Positions 8,336-39,807 of a stretch of DNA of 41,580 nucleotides are shown here, piece after piece. Within the stretch, counting starts at the first letter, position 1. Each line of letters begins with the position of its first letter. Both the position numbers and the translations under genes were made by a program. Origin of the DNA: a virus; IMG/VR virus record IMGVR_UViG_3300027965_000196, positions 1-41,580 of that record; one strand, written 5' to 3'. Below the pieces are notes generated by a model, which was not told the DNA's origin, searched no databases, and saw only the letters and a program-made list of their open reading frames with translations.

Positions 8336-8477
8336 CTCTACCCTTTCGGCCTTCCTGAAAACTCATCCGCGCTCCCGGGAAACCGCCGGCGCGCAGCAGG
8401 CTGGCGCGGCGGAAAAGGAACCGATGGACGAACACCGGCCGGAAACGCGGGTGAGTGCTCAGGAAGGCGAGTCTCAT
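8325..8477 (-). CDS. Possible 50-residue basic protein
   Basis: A short frame starts at an ATG that overlaps the Gp157 gene's TGA (ATGA) and runs eleven bases into the next gene. The product is Arg/Phe-rich (FRPVFVHRFLFRRASLL). The coupled start and the good fit in the gap support it; the composition is unusual and no homologue is recognised. The alternative is a non-coding gap of about 140 bases. Confidence 0.35.
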   Translation of the reverse strand: MRLAFLSTHPRFRPVFVHRFLFRRASLLRAGGFPGARMSFQEGRKGRDVF

Positions 8478-9112
8478 TTGACTACCAACGTGTGTCCGCC
8501 GATCGCCAGGTCTGCACCCGGCACATCGACGCCGCTTTCGATCGCTTCCCGGATCGCAGTCTTGCTCACCGTGCAGCTGGCCGACTCGCTGGCCTTTTTC
8601 AGGTCGTGCCAAACCGGATCATCCTCGTCGTTTTCGAATTCGTCGCAGATGAGCTGCCAGGCCTCGAGCGGTAGCTTCACGACGACTGATTTGTATTCCT
8701 CGGGCACGAGCAACTCGTCGGTGATCTCGACCGATGCCGGTCTCGCGCGCAACGAGAACGTGACGGTCTTGCCTTCCAACTTCTTCGGCTTGCCTTTGGC
8801 ATCCGTGCCGAGCGACTCGATCACGCTCTGCACGTACTGGCGCATGCGCTTGTGGGCTGCTTCGAAGGTGCGCTTGCGCTCGGATAAGCGCGCGATCTCG
8901 GCGTCACAGTTCTCGGCCTGCAGTTCGCAGTGACGCAGGAAGGCGTACACACGGTCGCGCTTCTCGACGGAAGCCTCGAGCGCAGAGGCGAGTTCCCGAC
9001 GAAATTCGGCCTCCTGTTCCGGGGTGACCAGCGCTTCCGTATCGAGCAGCGACTCGAGCTCGTGCTCGAGCTCAAACAGCGATGGCGCCCGCGGTGCAAG
9101 GGCGGCGCTCAT
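8474..9112 (-). CDS. Gp157-family phage protein
   Basis: A 212-residue protein of the Siphovirus Gp157 type. A long N-terminal coiled coil (about 12-110, with LEASVEKRDRVYAFLRHCEL and ENCDAEIARLSERKRTFEAA) is followed by a compact beta region with the family-typical KTVTFSLRARPASVEITDEL. The C-terminus is a helical/beta tail. Gp157 proteins were linked to phage resistance in Streptococcus, and their genes often lie beside single-strand annealing or Sak4-type recombinases, as here. It overlaps the Sak4-like gene by four bases. Confidence 0.85.
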   Translation of the reverse strand: MSAALAPRAPSLFELEHELESLLDTEALVTPEQEAEFRRELASALEASVEKRDRVYAFLRHCELQAENCDAEIARLSERKRTFEAAHKRMRQYVQSVIESLGTDAKGKPKKLEGKTVTFSLRARPASVEITDELLVPEEYKSVVVKLPLEAWQLICDEFENDEDDPVWHDLKKASESASCTVSKTAIREAIESGVDVPGADLAIGGHTLVVK

Positions 9113-10197
9113 GCCGCACCTCGCTCAGAAACGCTCTCGGCGTACAGATCGAGCTGACTGCCTTCGCTCAGCTCGAGGGCTTTGTTGTACAGTGCCAGCA
9201 CGCAGCGGCGCGCGGCCTGCATGCCCTTGAAGTGTTGCCAGCTGTCGACGCCATGCAGTCCGAGCACCTGGTTAAATGCCTCGTTGCCGGCTTCTTCGCC
9301 GAGCAGGCGCTGAAACGTCTGCAGGAAACCGCCGAATACTCGTGCGAAGCCGGGCTTATCGCTCATTTGCTTCCAGAGATCCTGGACCAGCTCGGGTACT
9401 TCAGAGTTGGCGGCCGCTGCCGGAGCACTCGCCGGCGCAGGTTTGGCAGATGGCTGCGGGTGCTCGATCGGTGCCGCGGCTGGCGCTTGCGCGCGCTCTT
9501 CGCCTTTTAGCCACTCGGCAAACGCGTCGAAGTCCTTTTCGCTCGGCTTGGCAATGACTTTGCCGGCGTACGCCGGGCAGCGAGTTTTGTCCGTGATCAG
9601 TTCGTTGTCTTCGTTCATCAGGCCCACGAAATCGAATTCGTACTCGAGGCCTTCGCGCTGCACCGGCGCCAGGCCGATTTTCACGCGCTGCTTCTTGCCG
9701 GTCCGCTCGTTGATCTGTTCCTCATACGCAGTCTTCGTGCGCATGGTGACGATGACGTGCATCGGCGATCCGATCATGCGCTCGAGCATCTGCCGTTCAA
9801 CCGGACGAAAGTCCTTCCAACCGGCCATGTCATCGCGTGATCCCGATCGTTTGCGCGCCATATCGACGTACTCGAGCGCGCCTCCGGCACCCATCCAGAA
9901 GTGGGACATCGAATCGATCACAATCACGTCGTAGCCAGCCTGCTCGGCCGCATCGAAAGCGGCGAAGAAGTTCTCGGGCGAGTAGTTGTTCAGCTCAATG
10001 ACGTCGAACTCGAACAAGTCGGCATACTTCGAAAGCGAGCCATGCTCGGTATCGATGCAAGCGACTCGCCCGTTCGGACCAGCCAGGCGGCGGGCTGCCT
10101 TCAGTGCGGACATGCTCTTGCCGGACCCTGAAGGGCCGATCAAAGCGAGCCGTCCTTTGGCACCGTACTTGACGGCGCGTTTAAATTGCAGATTCAT
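9109..10197 (-). CDS. Sak4-like RecA-fold ATPase (recombination)
   Basis: A 362-residue ATPase of the phage Sak4/RecA-fold group. Walker A is GPSGSGKS at 21-28. CIDTEHGSLSKYA follows at about 48-60, and the Walker B-like YDVIVIDSMSHFW has D95. Sensor-like MHVIVTMRTKT lies further on. The C-terminal third is Ala/Pro-rich followed by a helical tail. Such proteins promote single-strand annealing, often together with a phage SSB. The ATG at 10197 is preceded by an AAAAGGAAAA site. It is the first large gene of the leftward recombination cluster. Confidence 0.88.
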   Translation of the reverse strand: MNLQFKRAVKYGAKGRLALIGPSGSGKSMSALKAARRLAGPNGRVACIDTEHGSLSKYADLFEFDVIELNNYSPENFFAAFDAAEQAGYDVIVIDSMSHFWMGAGGALEYVDMARKRSGSRDDMAGWKDFRPVERQMLERMIGSPMHVIVTMRTKTAYEEQINERTGKKQRVKIGLAPVQREGLEYEFDFVGLMNEDNELITDKTRCPAYAGKVIAKPSEKDFDAFAEWLKGEERAQAPAAAPIEHPQPSAKPAPASAPAAAANSEVPELVQDLWKQMSDKPGFARVFGGFLQTFQRLLGEEAGNEAFNQVLGLHGVDSWQHFKGMQAARRCVLALYNKALELSEGSQLDLYAESVSERGAA

Positions 10198-10233: not shown

Positions 10234-10620
10234 TCAGGCGGCCTTTCGTCCGCCCAGCAGCACCTGGTTCTTCGTCTCGGCGATCAGGTGCAGAATGCCC
10301 TTCTGGTTTCGAAGCGAGATCACGTCCCAGCCGGAGCTCAGAGCGTGAATCGCGATGTTCTGCAGGTGCAGCAGCAGCTCGCTATCGAACCGGCGTGCGA
10401 TGCAGCGGTCGCACGCATAGCGCAGCTTCGATTCGTCGTCGCCGGAGATGACGGTCGAATGCTGTTCACAGAAGATCTCGTGACAGTACTGGCATTCGAA
10501 GCCGCAGTCTTCGCACAGCCACGTGCGCCAGCAGTTCGGCGCCTGGCAGTCGCCGACGACCTCAGAGGCAAAGGTCCGGCAGCGGCAGTCGTCGCAGGGA
10601 TAGGCTTCGTCGAACGGCAT
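10234..10620 (-). CDS. Cys-rich multi-zinc-finger protein
   Basis: A 128-residue protein. Its first ~75 residues contain CDDCRCRTF, CQAPNCWRTWLCEDC, CQYCHEIFCEQH and, later, YACDRCIARRF. The spacing suggests two or three zinc sites, similar to B-box or treble-clef modules. The C-terminal part (about 78-128) is helix plus strands (LLLHLQNIAIHALSSGWDVI). The ATG shares one base with the upstream TGA (TGATG), so it is co-translated with the RHH regulator. Function is unknown, and nucleic-acid or protein binding is likely. Confidence 0.7.
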   Translation of the reverse strand: MPFDEAYPCDDCRCRTFASEVVGDCQAPNCWRTWLCEDCGFECQYCHEIFCEQHSTVISGDDESKLRYACDRCIARRFDSELLLHLQNIAIHALSSGWDVISLRNQKGILHLIAETKNQVLLGGRKAA

Positions 10621-10817
10621 CAGCGGCCGCCCTTCGACGAGCTTTTCAGTGCGCGCTCGACGGCCTCGAGGATGATCGCCTGCCGCGACGTTTCCCGCTC
10701 AAACGCCAGAGTTCGGATTCGGTTGTAGATCTCGATAGGAAACCGAACCTGCAGGTAACGGTACGGCGGGGTAGGTGCTTCCTGTGGTACATCTGGGTGG
10801 TGAACTAGTGCGCTCAT
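10620..10817 (-). CDS. Ribbon-helix-helix regulator
   Basis: A 65-residue protein whose second half is an RHH (Arc/CopG/MetJ-type) DNA-binding domain. The beta strand YRYLQVRFPIEIYNRIRTL leads into a helix, then ERETSRQAIILEAVERALK. ATG 10817 is preferred over a TTG-initiated extension to 10844 because the extension adds unrelated sequence over the repeat region. No clear ribosome-binding site is seen. It is the first gene of the leftward operon and diverges from another RHH-like gene; the gap holds tandem CTAG boxes. It is a good candidate for the early repressor or Arc-like switch. Confidence 0.78.
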   Translation of the reverse strand: MSALVHHPDVPQEAPTPPYRYLQVRFPIEIYNRIRTLAFERETSRQAIILEAVERALKSSSKGGR

Positions 10818-10871
10818 TTGTTGTATCGCTAGTGCGGTATACAACTAGTTTCTAGCAAACTAGTTCGCTAG
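10805..10871. promoter_or_regulatory. Phased CTAG boxes (candidate RHH operator)
   Basis: Six CTAG cores start at 10805, 10829, 10845, 10852, 10860 and 10868, mostly within (A/G)CTAGT. The last four are spaced 7, 8 and 8 bases apart. This resembles the 8-base spacing of tandem boxes bound cooperatively by MetJ-type RHH proteins. Five of the six lie in the 73-base gap between the divergent RHH-type genes and one lies in the first codons of the leftward gene. Binding is inference; the repeat pattern is directly visible. Confidence 0.65.
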
Positions 10872-10890
10872 TCAAGGGAATTTTACACCC

Positions 10891-11550
10891 GTGTCCAACA
10901 GATCCCCGCAACTTATTGCATTTGAAGCGAAAAAAAAAGCCAAGCCGAAGAAGGAGCAGATCTCCTTTGCGCTCACCGGGCCCGAGGAGGAGCTCAAGAA
11001 GCGCTTCATCCAGGTTCTGGATCGGCGCGGGCTGGGCATCAAAGAGGTGCTGCTCCAGTTCATAGAGCATTACGTGGAGTTCGGCGGGGATCTCGTGATG
11101 CTGGCCGGCGAGGAAGCGAAGAAACTTGCTCACTCACGTGAAAATGTTAGTGAAGTCTCTGAATCCACAGACTTTCCACAAAGCGTCAACAATTTTTTGG
11201 CTGTGTGGCCAGAGATACTCAGTACGGTACGTACTGATCCCGAGTCGCTGCGAGCCTTTTTGTCCGTGGTCTTGAATGACCCGGCCATGCGCCAGATCGT
11301 AGCGCAGAGTCTAAATACTCAAGTGGCCGTACAGGCCGATGTCGAACATCATTCAGATGCCGGCGCCCGCTCCGCTGCGAGGGAGACGCCGGTCCGATCG
11401 GGCCAAAACGCCGACCGGGGACAAACCGTACGAGAGGATAGACGAGTTATGCGAAATGCTGAAGAGGCAGCAAACGCTTTGGAGCAAGAGCTTGACAGCT
11501 GGGACCGAAATCCTAGACGAAATTCGAAGCGAAATCGAAAGACTGGGTGA
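10891..11550 (+). CDS. RHH-like regulatory protein, divergent from 10620-10817
   Basis: A 219-residue frame starting at GTG 10891. A Lys-rich N-terminus (FEAKKKAKPKKEQ) leads into a possible RHH or short helical domain (ISFALTGPEEELKKRFIQVL, GLGIKEVLLQFIEHYVEFGG). A helical region follows at about 100-150. The last ~70 residues are Arg/Ala/Glu-rich low-complexity and overlap the PAS gene in another frame, so this tail may not be an ancestral part of the protein. Probably it is a DNA-binding switch protein opposing the leftward RHH gene. An AAGGGA lies a little far upstream (about 12 bases). Confidence 0.6.
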   Translation: MSNRSPQLIAFEAKKKAKPKKEQISFALTGPEEELKKRFIQVLDRRGLGIKEVLLQFIEHYVEFGGDLVMLAGEEAKKLAHSRENVSEVSESTDFPQSVNNFLAVWPEILSTVRTDPESLRAFLSVVLNDPAMRQIVAQSLNTQVAVQADVEHHSDAGARSAARETPVRSGQNADRGQTVREDRRVMRNAEEAANALEQELDSWDRNPRRNSKRNRKTG

Positions 11551-11995
11551 GGCATGTTCCCAAGAGAAGGTAAGACGCCGACCACCTGGATTCTCCGAGA
11601 GCTCCCGAGCTGAGGACGACAACGAAATTCGATCGTTGATGCAATTCGCCGGCTACGGGATGGCCAAAGTGGCTCTCGATGGAAAAATTTTAGTGTGTAA
11701 TCCGGTCTTTTCGCGAATGCTCGGATACACGCCTACTGAGCTGGAGAAAATGACATTTGCAGATATCACGCACCCAGACGATGTGCAGCAGGATTGGGAG
11801 AACGTGCTGGAACTCATCAGCGGTGCCAGCGACTCGTACTGGATGCGGAAACGCTATCTGCACCGAAAAGGTAATATCGTGTGGGCTACCATTCAGGTCT
11901 GGGCCGTTCGGGATCGTGCTCGCCGGCTACGCTATTTCGCAGGGATTGTGCAGCCCGCTGCCGCGCATAGCAAGCCGAGGATCGTCGCGGGATGA
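11339..11995 (+). CDS. PAS-domain protein
   Basis: A 218-residue protein. The N-terminus (MSNIIQMPAPAPLRGRR) leads to an amphipathic helix (about 30-72, YERIDELCEMLKRQQTLWSK). A full PAS/PAC domain follows at about 95-207: FAGYGMAKVALDGKILVCNP, then FSRMLGYTPTELEKM, HPDDVQQDW, RYLHRKGNIVWATIQVW. No kinase, GGDEF or HTH output domain is present. PAS domains bind ligands or mediate dimerisation and are rare in phage regulatory regions. The start overlaps the previous frame by 212 bases. The stop overlaps the next gene's ATG (ATGA), so it belongs to a rightward operon with both neighbours. Confidence 0.8.
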   Translation: MSNIIQMPAPAPLRGRRRSDRAKTPTGDKPYERIDELCEMLKRQQTLWSKSLTAGTEILDEIRSEIERLGEACSQEKVRRRPPGFSESSRAEDDNEIRSLMQFAGYGMAKVALDGKILVCNPVFSRMLGYTPTELEKMTFADITHPDDVQQDWENVLELISGASDSYWMRKRYLHRKGNIVWATIQVWAVRDRARRLRYFAGIVQPAAAHSKPRIVAG

Positions 11996-12500: not shown

Positions 12501-12947
12501 TCAGGCCGAGCGGCGGAGTTTGACGACCGAGACCTGCACAGCCGCGTCCAGTGCCGCCAGGGCCCGAGTGTACTGCTCCGGTTTGCTCTGGTGATTCGGA
12601 TCCAGCATGCGGCGAACGACGACCTCGCTGATCCGTAGTTTTCTTGCGAGCTTTACGTTCGAGATCTTCTGATCGTGCATCAGCTGGTAGAGTGCCAGCT
12701 TCGGTGCCAGATCGAGCGATACCGGAATGGCGCGTTGCCCTTTGCGTACCGGCGAGGGTGCAGGAATCTCCGCTTTCTCTTCCATCCGGTACTCCAACAC
12801 GGCATTCAAGCAATCAACCGCCATGCGAAACGCGTCCTCATCGTCGTCGCCCTGACTGTTAGCTTCCGGAAAATCGGGAAATGAAATACTATAGCCCTTC
12901 TTTTCGGGGGAAAAAACGGCTGGATAGACCAATGATTTAGCTTTCAT
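12501..12947 (-). CDS. hicB: HicB-type antitoxin with HTH
   Basis: A 148-residue antitoxin. The N-terminal partially degraded RNase H-like HicB domain shows YPAVFSPEKKGYSISFPDFP followed by ANSQGDDDEDAFRMAVDCLN. The C-terminal half has an HTH (about 90-125, QKISNVKLARKLRISEVVVR), consistent with autoregulation. It follows hicA with an 11-base overlap and has its own GAGGAGAAGGA site. It should neutralise HicA and repress the operon, probably through the palindrome at 13166-13183. Confidence 0.88.
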   Translation of the reverse strand: MKAKSLVYPAVFSPEKKGYSISFPDFPEANSQGDDDEDAFRMAVDCLNAVLEYRMEEKAEIPAPSPVRKGQRAIPVSLDLAPKLALYQLMHDQKISNVKLARKLRISEVVVRRMLDPNHQSKPEQYTRALAALDAAVQVSVVKLRRSA

Positions 12948-13155
12948 ACAAATCCTTCTCCTCGATGCCGAGTTGTTTCAGAATGCCTTTGAGCGTTCCC
13001 GTTTTGAGCTCCGAGTTGGCGTGCTCAGGTATCACCGACTGCGCTTCACCGAAGTAGACCTTGCGGTGACTTCCCTTGGCTGCTGCGATCGTCAATTCAA
13101 GACCGCGCTTCTTTGCCAGCTTCTTCAGCTTGCGTAGAAGCTCGGTCGATTTCAT
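12937..13155 (-). CDS. hicA: HicA-type mRNA interferase toxin
   Basis: A 72-residue HicA-fold protein with a dsRBD-like core. It has the Lys-rich first helix KSTELLRKLKKLAKKRG, catalytic His H30 in AAKGSHRKVYF, and the C-terminal family signature KTGTLKGILKQLGI. HicA toxins cleave mRNA and are neutralised by HicB. The start ATG at 13155 is chosen over an extension to 13188 because the extension would cover the promoter. In a prophage this module can stabilise lysogeny or act in anti-phage defence; which applies here is not shown. Confidence 0.88.
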   Translation of the reverse strand: MKSTELLRKLKKLAKKRGLELTIAAAKGSHRKVYFGEAQSVIPEHANSELKTGTLKGILKQLGIEEKDLYES

Positions 13156-13161
13156 AACTCT

Positions 13162-13190
13162 ATTATCGTACACATCTGTACGAATCACAA
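13162..13190 (-). promoter_or_regulatory. hicAB promoter with internal palindrome
   Basis: On the minus strand a -35-like TTGTGA (13185-13190) and a -10-like GATAAT (13162-13167) are separated by exactly 17 bases. A perfect 7-4-7 inverted repeat, TCGTACA/TGTACGA at 13166-13183, fills the spacer. It lies seven bases before the hicA start codon. The natural reading is an operator for the HTH of HicB; this is inference from position. Confidence 0.65.
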
Positions 13191-37518: not shown

Positions 37519-39807
37519 ATGCTCGCGAGATTCTTACGGGGCGCGGCCCTCGTCTGCCTTGGCGCGCTCGGCGCGTTTGCGCAGCTCGTTACGGTTACCG
37601 CTTCGAACATAACCGACTCGACCGGAACACCGATCAACGGCACGATCTATTTCCAGCCGAGTTCGAGCAGCGGCGGCCCTATTTCGTATCGACTCGTCGG
37701 CAAAGGTCAGGTCACGGCGCAGACGGTCAGCGCGCCAGTTGTCAACGGATCGTTCACGCTGCAGATCGCCGACACAACGCAGACGCAGCCAGCCAACGTC
37801 TGCTATCGCGTCTGGGCGACCGACAACCTGCATCGGGTCGTAATCGGTTCACCGCAGGCGTCGACGAACTCGGGCTACAACTGTGTTCAGGTATCGCCGG
37901 CATGGTGCGTGAACGGCACCTGTAGCTTCGACGCCTATCCGCCGAACCTGCCAGCGCAAGCTATTGTTCAGACCGGACCCCAGGGACCGCAAGGCCCTCC
38001 GGGTCCAACCGGTGCGACCGGTCCGGCGGGTCCTGCCGGTCCAACCGGGCCCGCAGGTCCTGCAGGTCCAGCCGGCGCGAACGGCGCAACAGGTGGGCAA
38101 GGGCCGCCTGGTCCGACCGGAGCCACCGGCGCACAGGGGCCTCCTGGCGCTACGGGCGCGATCGGTCCGCAAGGGCCAACGGGTCCGGTCGGAGCCACCG
38201 GACCGCAAGGTCCCGCCGGGCCAACCGGTGCGGCAGGAACGAACGGAAATACCGTCTGGAACGGGACCGGAGCACCCGCTTCGGCGCTCGGGCAAAACGG
38301 CGACTTCTACATCGACACGACTGCAAACAAACTCTATGGACCGAAAGCGTCGGCCACCTGGCCGACAACTGGCGTTTCGATGATCGGCCCGCAGGGCGCG
38401 ATAGGCGCAACCGGTGCACAGGGCCCAGCCGGGCCGACCGGCGCCACAGGTGCAACCGGTCCAGCCGGCGCGCAGGGACCAGCCGGCACCACCGGTGCGA
38501 CCGGGCCTGCTGGACCGACGGGACCAACCGGAGCCACCGGAGCAACCGGGCCTGCAGGGGCGAATGGCAACACGCTCTGGAACGGCCCTGGCACGCCCTC
38601 CGCCGCGCTCGGGCAAAACGGCGATTTCTACCTGAATACTTCGACCAATGTGCTGTACGGTCCTAAGGCATCCGGCGCCTGGCCAGGCACAGGTGTGTCG
38701 TTGGTTGGTCCGCAGGGAGCGACGGGAGCAACAGGTGCAACCGGCGCGACTGGTCCGCAGGGGCCGGCCGGCGTGCTGAATACGGCAAACGATACGAACG
38801 TGACGGCGACGCTCTCGAGCGGAACGCTGACCATGGGCTGGCAGAACGCGCTCGCCAAGTCGCGGCAGTATTCGAACACGGTTTACACCGACCAGGCCGA
38901 AACGTTCGGTCCTTACCTCTACGACTTTTCGACGTCTTCGCTGCGCATTCCGAACGGCTCGACGAACCCGTCGACCTGCAGCGTCGGTCAGCTGTTCTTC
39001 AATACGGGCGCCACGGCGGGGCAGAACCTGTACGAGTGCACCGCCACCAACACCTGGACGCAGGACGTCAATGCCGGCGGTGGGACCTCGATCACGTACG
39101 GCGCAATCTCGGCGATTCCATCAACCTGTACCACCGGCGCGATGTACGTCATCACCAGCGGCAACTTCGATCCGGCCATCTGCACCGCCACGAATACCTG
39201 GACGTACTACTACAACCATCGACCAGTGATTCCGATGTCGAAGCTCGGCCTGACGGCTGGCGGAACGAGCGGCCCGACGCTCACGACGACCAACGGATAC
39301 GCGGTCATCAACGCGCCGATCGGCGGCTCCGCGAATTTGTTCCTTGCCTACTGGACGGCGCCGGCCACCCCTTACACCGTCACGCTGCCGTTCTGGGTCT
39401 CGCCCATCATGGACAACGGCAATTATCGGCAGTGGTTCTTCGGCTGGAGCGACGGTTCGATCGGCTATCAGGGCCTTCAATGCGGAACCGGCAACGGGTC
39501 CTATAGCTCCGCGGTCGGCTGCCGAATCATGGGCATGACCATGACGGGCCTCTACAACGGAACGGTTGGCAACATAAACCTGACCTGGATTAATAGCCCG
39601 AATGACGTGCGGTACGTGCAGCTCAAAAATGATGGCACGACGCTCACCGTGAACCTCTGCGCTGACTACGATAACTGCGTCCTTTTCGGCAGCGTCACGG
39701 CGAGCGCGTATTTCACGAGCGGAGCTCCGACGCGGCTCGCCATCGGAGCGAACGACCAGGTGAGCAGCGGAGCGGCTCTCGCTTTAACAGTTATCGGGCA
39801 GCAATAG
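37519..39807 (+). CDS. Collagen-like fibre with signal peptide
   Basis: A 762-residue protein. The first ~21 residues look like a Sec signal ([20 protein letters not shown], with cleavage near AFA/Q). Residues about 22-150 are a beta domain containing [19 protein letters not shown]. Three collagen-like Gly-X-Y blocks follow (about 153-245, 290-352 and 397-418). Two copies of a non-collagen spacer ([20 protein letters not shown] and [20 protein letters not shown]) separate them. The C-terminal ~340 residues form an adhesive-like domain. It is probably a trimeric fibre; the signal peptide is odd for a phage tail protein. Confidence 0.82.

Follow-up and report, generated by a model that had tools for sequence, protein, structure and literature searches.

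A phased CTAG array between divergent prophage genes as a probable operator for a ribbon-helix-helix regulator

In the temperate phage P22, the immI region contains two divergent ribbon-helix-helix (RHH) genes, arc and mnt, arranged around one operator region. Arc and Mnt are close paralogues, the Arc subsites carry TAGA, and Arc acts as an RHH autorepressor of its own operon. Tandem CTAG at 8 bp is a property of TrpR operators, and adjacent perfect met boxes (consensus AGACGTCT) likewise create CTAG at 8-bp steps. RHH dimers of E. coli MetJ form multimers on adjacent 8-bp boxes (PMC2775130). Among RHH partition proteins, omega binds 7-bp repeats (PMC9499535) and ParG binds tetramer boxes (PMC7308502). 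Here we describe an array of CTAG boxes lying between two divergent transcription units of a prophage. From sequence comparisons, we assign a probability of roughly 70% to the reading that this array is the operator for an RHH regulator of the prophage.

The window (the whole stretch of DNA that was analysed, 41,580 nucleotides) is situated on contig C39 (43,859 bp) of a 5.03-Mb genome with ~96% completeness. It was identified as a prophage because it carries an integrase gene together with recombination and replication genes, the latter oriented leftward, and terminase, portal-like and tail genes oriented rightward. Both ends of C39 carry a 17-bp direct repeat (L390:1-17 and the last 17 bases of L391), and a tRNA-like T-arm was found near one end, where ARAGORN recognised no whole tRNA. 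The repeats are probable attachment sites, which suggests that the contig was cut at these sites and is nearly complete. Relatives of the phage were found only at a distance, via its ATPase, and PADLOC returned no defence hit. Near the tail genes, positions 37519-39807 encode a long protein with collagen-like Gly-X-Y repeats. The array and its neighbouring genes are as follows.

8474..9112, minus strand: Siphovirus Gp157 / Gam-like protein, leftward early operon (Pfam, PHROGs)
9109..10197, minus strand: AAA_24 / Sak4-like recombination ATPase, leftward early operon (Pfam, PHROGs)
10234..10620, minus strand: Cys-rich protein of 128 aa, next after RHH1 in the leftward operon (no Pfam or PHROG family match)
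10620..10817, minus strand: RHH1, 65-aa ribbon-helix-helix protein, first gene of the leftward early operon (profile, homologs); alternatively 74 aa from TTG 10844, same strand
10803..10842, no strand: outer part of the array, with CTAG at 10805 and 10829 in the 8-bp register of the core (24 and 16 bp)
10837..10842, no strand: GTATAC palindrome within the array (sequence)
10843..10873, no strand: putative core operator with four CTAG boxes at steps of 7, 8 and 8; units AACTAGTT / TTCTAGCA / AACTAGTT / CGCTAGTC
10891..11550, plus strand: RHH2, 219 aa, residues ~20-64 forming a probable RHH domain (coding character, profile)
11339..11995, plus strand: PAS-domain protein encoded by the second rightward gene, whose first 212 bp overlap the end of RHH2

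The PAS-domain gene overlapping RHH2 is unusual in a phage and may provide a signal input. Convergent to the RHH2-PAS unit lies a HicAB toxin-antitoxin pair (12501-13188), with a single CTAG (13276) 88 bp upstream of hicA.

A count of positions confirmed what an earlier note on this DNA had described, namely six CTAG cores within 67 bp (10805-10871), four of them spaced 7-8-8; the cores begin at 10805, 10829, 10845, 10852, 10860 and 10868. CTAG is otherwise rare, the whole window containing 29 against ~70 expected from dinucleotide shuffles. Counting CTAG across the window had been named beforehand as a check on the claim, and the result did not refute it: outside the array there are 23 in 41.5 kb, or 0.55 per kb. 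At this background rate, the Poisson probability of six CTAG in a 67-bp window, multiplied by the 29 anchors, is ~1e-8. Markov sequences with the composition of the window reached a maximum of three CTAG per 67 bp. With the composition of the array itself, a harsh control because the array sets that composition, six were reached once in 50 runs of 41.6 kb.

The phasing proved tighter than had been noted. Successive spacings are 24, 16, 7, 8 and 8, the two long gaps corresponding to three and two 8-bp units, and all six cores occupy one 8-bp register, interrupted by just one shift of a base, from 10845 to 10852. For six CTAG placed randomly in the same span, the probability of multiples of 8 in four of five spacings is 0.001, and that of two adjacent residues holding all six at period 8 is 0.003; of the periods between 5 and 12, only 8 accommodates the six in this way. 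The triplet CTAG-N4-CTAG-N4-CTAG (CTAGNNNNCTAGNNNNCTAG) occurs once in the 5.03-Mb genome, in the array, and CTAGNNNNCTAG is found at only three places elsewhere in it. Box 10852 is TCTAGC and the remaining five are RCTAGT, giving the consensus RRCTAGTK. In order, the 8-bp units are AACTAGTG, CGCTCATT, TGTTGTAT, CGCTAGTG, CGGTATAC and AACTAGTT, followed by TTCTAGCA, AACTAGTT and CGCTAGTC. In the outer array, the register positions 10811, 10819 and 10835 are degenerate; the first of these units overlaps the RHH1 start codon and the last overlaps the GTATAC palindrome, which could be a -10-like element on both strands. A sigma-70 promoter scan recognised no full promoter and nothing above chance.

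The array had been placed in the gap between divergent genes. The divergence was confirmed, but part of the array lies within RHH1: if the gene starts at ATG 10817, box 10805 falls within codons 4-5, and if it starts at the upstream TTG (10844) it contains two boxes. The gap between ATG 10817 and GTG 10891 measures 73 bp, and the four adjacent boxes sit 20-46 bp upstream of RHH2.

We then consider the two flanking proteins. By profile comparison RHH1 is a clear RHH protein, as had been proposed for the leftward gene, aligning with an RHH profile over 47 columns (hhalign probability 97.6%, E 3e-12) and weakly matching the PHROG 'Arc-like repressor' (E 0.0015). Homologs of RHH1 are present in two other genera. 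A single-sequence AlphaFold model of RHH1, built with no alignment, contained no strand and was uninformative, and a model of RHH2 built in the same manner was of low confidence and equally uninformative. The same proposal for the rightward gene holds in part. The first 80 codons of RHH2 have clear coding character, and a profile made from RHH2 and its one good relative aligned with RHH proteins over the whole motif (pair E 0.00027), but the hhalign probability was only 41.6% and RHH2 matched neither Pfam nor any other family. We therefore regard RHH2 as a probable RHH protein. RHH1 and RHH2 do not align as paralogues; neither has a relative among solved structures, nor a sequence relative among the viral contigs and the phage collection.

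The one good relative of RHH2 came from a search of 16 other genomes of the same genus (L365; 43% identical, 91 aa). It lies in a prophage-like locus, divergent to an ATPase 58% identical to that of the prophage, and the locus has no RHH1 gene. Two GCTAGC boxes are located 15 and 27 bp before the start codon of the RHH2 homolog, 12 bp apart and not 8. Since boxes and an RHH2 homolog occur together here without RHH1, this locus ties CTAG to RHH2 rather than to RHH1, moderate evidence given the different spacing. Upstream of AAA-ATPase relatives from other genera (L373-L375), neither a CTAG array nor an RHH gene was seen. Of the two proteins, RHH2 is more likely to be the principal binder; RHH1 would compete with it or modulate it.

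The idea that 8-bp-phased CTAG serves as an RHH operator gained support from independent RHH genes. A scan of 297 genomes of the phylum for the CTAG-array pattern gave few arrays other than plain tandem repeats; two, in two Acidobacteriota species of one genus, stand directly before a CopG-type RHH gene that is followed by a VOC gene. A further pattern built from those two arrays retrieved 135 loci (1.0 Mb), in which the RHH profile recognised only three ORFs, all starting <=54 bp from the array, in Terriglobus (L280), Dictyobacter (RHH fused to VOC) and Arthrobacter (RHH then VOC). The Terriglobus match is circular, the pattern having been drawn to fit its relatives, and the three ORFs represent one protein family; Terriglobus belongs to the class of the prophage's own genome, since another member of that class (L184) has an RHH-VOC protein identical to the one in Terriglobus albidus. 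In order to avoid this bias of the DNA pattern, plasmids were searched with the Arthrobacter RHH protein, and the nine hits were read upstream. All nine plasmids, whose genes belong to a CopG-type 'QFNVYLP' RHH-VOC family, carry 2-5 CTAG at exact 8-bp steps upstream, in arrays that end ~5-20 bp before the RHH gene, with 30 CTAG in 657 bp upstream versus 1 in 7,788 bp around. The plasmids are from Streptomyces, Embleya, Streptantibioticus and Burkholderia, four genera of two phyla, several of the Streptomyces being close kin. Three more distant RHH-VOC relatives (L378-L380) showed no array. Single loci with phased CTAG before an RHH gene agree in Acidobacteriota, Chloroflexota and Actinomycetota. 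As a cassette, RHH-VOC (glyoxalase-like) is conserved in Acidobacteriota, Chloroflexota, Actinomycetota and Pseudomonadota (L381-L389, L185, L256, L274, L280).

Two viral contigs provide looser cases than these plasmids. L144 (2297-3460) encodes parA and an overlapping RHH-like gene, a likely RHH partition locus, with CTAG at steps of 8, 24, 8, 8 and 8 just upstream. In L121 (742-1510), a phage protein joins an N-terminal RHH domain to an O-like replication domain, and seven CTAG at 8 bp lie 21 bp upstream of its gene. RHH genes in general, in the prophage's own genome and class, have no CTAG arrays upstream, which is expected if the specificity belongs to particular subfamilies. Because nine RHH genes retrieved by protein and further independent loci carry phased CTAG, this word at 8-bp steps very probably constitutes a genuine operator code for RHH proteins. 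RHH1 and RHH2 do not share the beta-strand residues of the RHH-VOC family, which counts against the operator reading, as binding specificity is not transferable from that family. Among openly licensed papers none links ribbon-helix-helix with CTAG; the one co-occurrence concerned sequencing ladders.

The earlier note had implied that CTAG arrays go with RHH proteins only, and this was wrong. GntR-family genes adjoin CTAG arrays of 8-bp step (CTAG-8) at L230, L260, L276, L283, L297 and L269, and a TrpR-family gene does so at L347; different DNA-binding folds so appear, from these neighbourhoods, to converge on one phased word. Since GntR and TrpR genes share the signature, an array alone does not name its reader. 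The RHH assignment in the prophage rests on adjacency and comparison, the flanking genes being RHH or probable RHH; TrpR was rejected as the binder, the genome having no TrpR-family gene. Across the collections, numerous CTAG-8 arrays consist of nothing more than a tandem repeat, for example of CTAGNNNN, which recurs in many contigs. In viral contigs the four-box pattern returned mostly simple octamer tandem repeats and is of little use alone, and the exact 14-mer ACTAGTTCGCTAGT gave 54 matches there, none of them a comparable array. Bacteroidales and Dialister contigs contain many CTAG-8 arrays at an otherwise low CTAG density (L236, L240, L242, L245, L251, L262-L266, L277 and others).

Taken together, a density and phase beyond chance and uniqueness in the genome count for the operator reading, while RHH2's missing family match, its 41.6% probability, the 12-bp spacing in its relative, the GntR and TrpR arrays, the array-less L378-L380 and the absence of a recognised sigma-70 promoter count against it. 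From this evidence we infer cooperativity, repression, the identity of the binding protein and a part in lysis-lysogeny, as follows. Each CTAG would mark one 8-bp unit bound by one RHH dimer, whose beta-ribbon would enter the major groove. Steps of 8 bp would let neighbouring dimers touch through their helices, resulting in MetJ-like cooperative binding. The dense block at 10843-10873 would cover the DNA immediately before RHH2, and through the two outer boxes occupancy would extend over the RHH1 start. A filled array would repress both divergent units, that is, the leftward early DNA-metabolism operon and, by autoregulation, the RHH2-PAS unit; with the array only partly filled, or with RHH1 and RHH2 in competition, one side could gain over the other.

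An extension of the operator reading, rather than an exclusive alternative to it, holds that the array is the operator of a lysis-lysogeny switch, in which RHH2 would play the part of CI and RHH1 that of Cro, both competing for the boxes, with the PAS protein feeding in the inducing signal. We hold this tentatively, at somewhat below even odds. The RHH1-recombination-replication operon, the early lytic unit, runs one way and the short RHH2-PAS unit the other way from a shared operator, as an immunity region would be laid out, and the integrase and the 17-bp direct repeats at the contig ends are as in an integrated temperate phage. The earlier statement that no CI-type repressor was found also holds for the ~20 early-region ORFs scanned with Pfam and PHROGs. 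The sole HTH candidates in the early ORFs scanned were an excisionase-like HTH_17 protein and the HicB antitoxin; the weak Cro/CI-like stretch of the latter speaks against the switch, as does L365, which lacks RHH1 and shows that a two-protein switch is not conserved. A lysis-lysogeny role is plausible: it agrees with how the genes are ordered and with the finding of no CI-type repressor in the early genes scanned. The broadest claim, that an acidobacterial temperate phage chooses between lysis and lysogeny via two unrelated RHH proteins on one CTAG array without an HTH repressor, and that phased CTAG is a widespread unrecognised RHH code extending from phages to chromosomes in several phyla, we consider doubtful.

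Alternatively, RHH1 alone might bind the array as autoregulator of the early operon, RHH2 not being a DNA-binding protein. RHH1 is the secure RHH protein of the two, Arc-like according to PHROGs, and P22 Arc provides a precedent as an autorepressor. However, the dense boxes are nearer to RHH2, RHH1 itself contains box 10805, and at L365 boxes accompany an RHH2 homolog although RHH1 is missing, all of which makes this arrangement rather unlikely. It is improbable that the reader is a host regulator of another fold, of the GntR/YtrA, GntR/FadR or TrpR type. The GntR and TrpR genes beside CTAG-8 arrays at the seven loci named above would suit such a regulator, but this genome offers no TrpR, the prophage regions scanned contain no GntR gene, and the uniqueness of the CTAG triplet in the host genome means that a host protein would lack comparable sites in the chromosome it serves. 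About as improbable is an RHH-bound partition centromere or a set of replication iterons in place of a promoter operator. RHH partition proteins do bind phased short repeats (PMC9499535, PMC7308502), and L144 combines a parA-RHH pair with a CTAG-8 array; against this, the early genes include no parA-like gene, the ATPase is an AAA_24/Sak4 recombination protein, and the element has an integrase. A chance cluster or a simple octamer microsatellite like the tandem CTAGNNNN is very improbable, for although many CTAG-8 arrays amount to such repeats, here the four-base spacers are not alike, CTAG is a rare word in this genome, and chance would give this density with a probability of ~1e-8 and this phase with one of 0.003.

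If the operator reading is correct, there would be a readable DNA signature for RHH regulators, a group whose binding sites generally resist prediction, and CTAG at steps of 8 before small RHH genes would become a search rule. For phages, it would open to experiment the possibility that immunity depends on RHH proteins and nothing else, which P22 Arc and Mnt had brought up only with respect to a secondary immunity region.

Compared with described systems, the locus differs from a CI/Cro-type immunity region in that Pfam and PHROGs found no HTH repressor divergent to the early operon among the early ORFs scanned. ParG and omega resemble it in using short phased boxes, which in their case serve as both operator and centromere (PMC7308502, PMC9499535), but their boxes are degenerate tetramers or 7-bp WATCACW and they need a ParA partner; no ParA ATPase stands beside an RHH gene in the early ORFs scanned, as a type Ib ParABS system would have. 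TrpR, unlike the candidate RHH binder, is an HTH protein. The RHH-VOC cassettes of Streptomyces, Embleya, Burkholderia and Terriglobus share CTAG at exact 8-bp steps right upstream of the RHH gene, in 2 to 5 boxes, whereas theirs is a chromosomal or plasmid gene with a VOC/glyoxalase domain next to it or fused, a QFNVYLP strand and no divergent RHH pair. With the met boxes the array has in common the geometry of adjacent 8-bp boxes; MetJ differs in its box (AGACGTCT, against RRCTAGTK in the prophage), its SAM co-repressor and its chromosomal methionine regulon, and neither RHH1 nor RHH2 gave a Pfam MetJ match. P22 immI is comparable in that divergent genes flank an array in the prophage too, although of these RHH1 is a secure RHH protein and RHH2 only a probable one. 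Here the two are of different RHH types in place of Arc/Mnt-type paralogues, and recombination genes would be controlled instead of ant, with the Cys-rich, AAA_24 and Gp157 genes downstream of RHH1. Differences in box sequence, co-repressor, paralogy and downstream genes place the array outside both systems, though its layout resembles that of P22 immI and its geometry that of the MetJ boxes.
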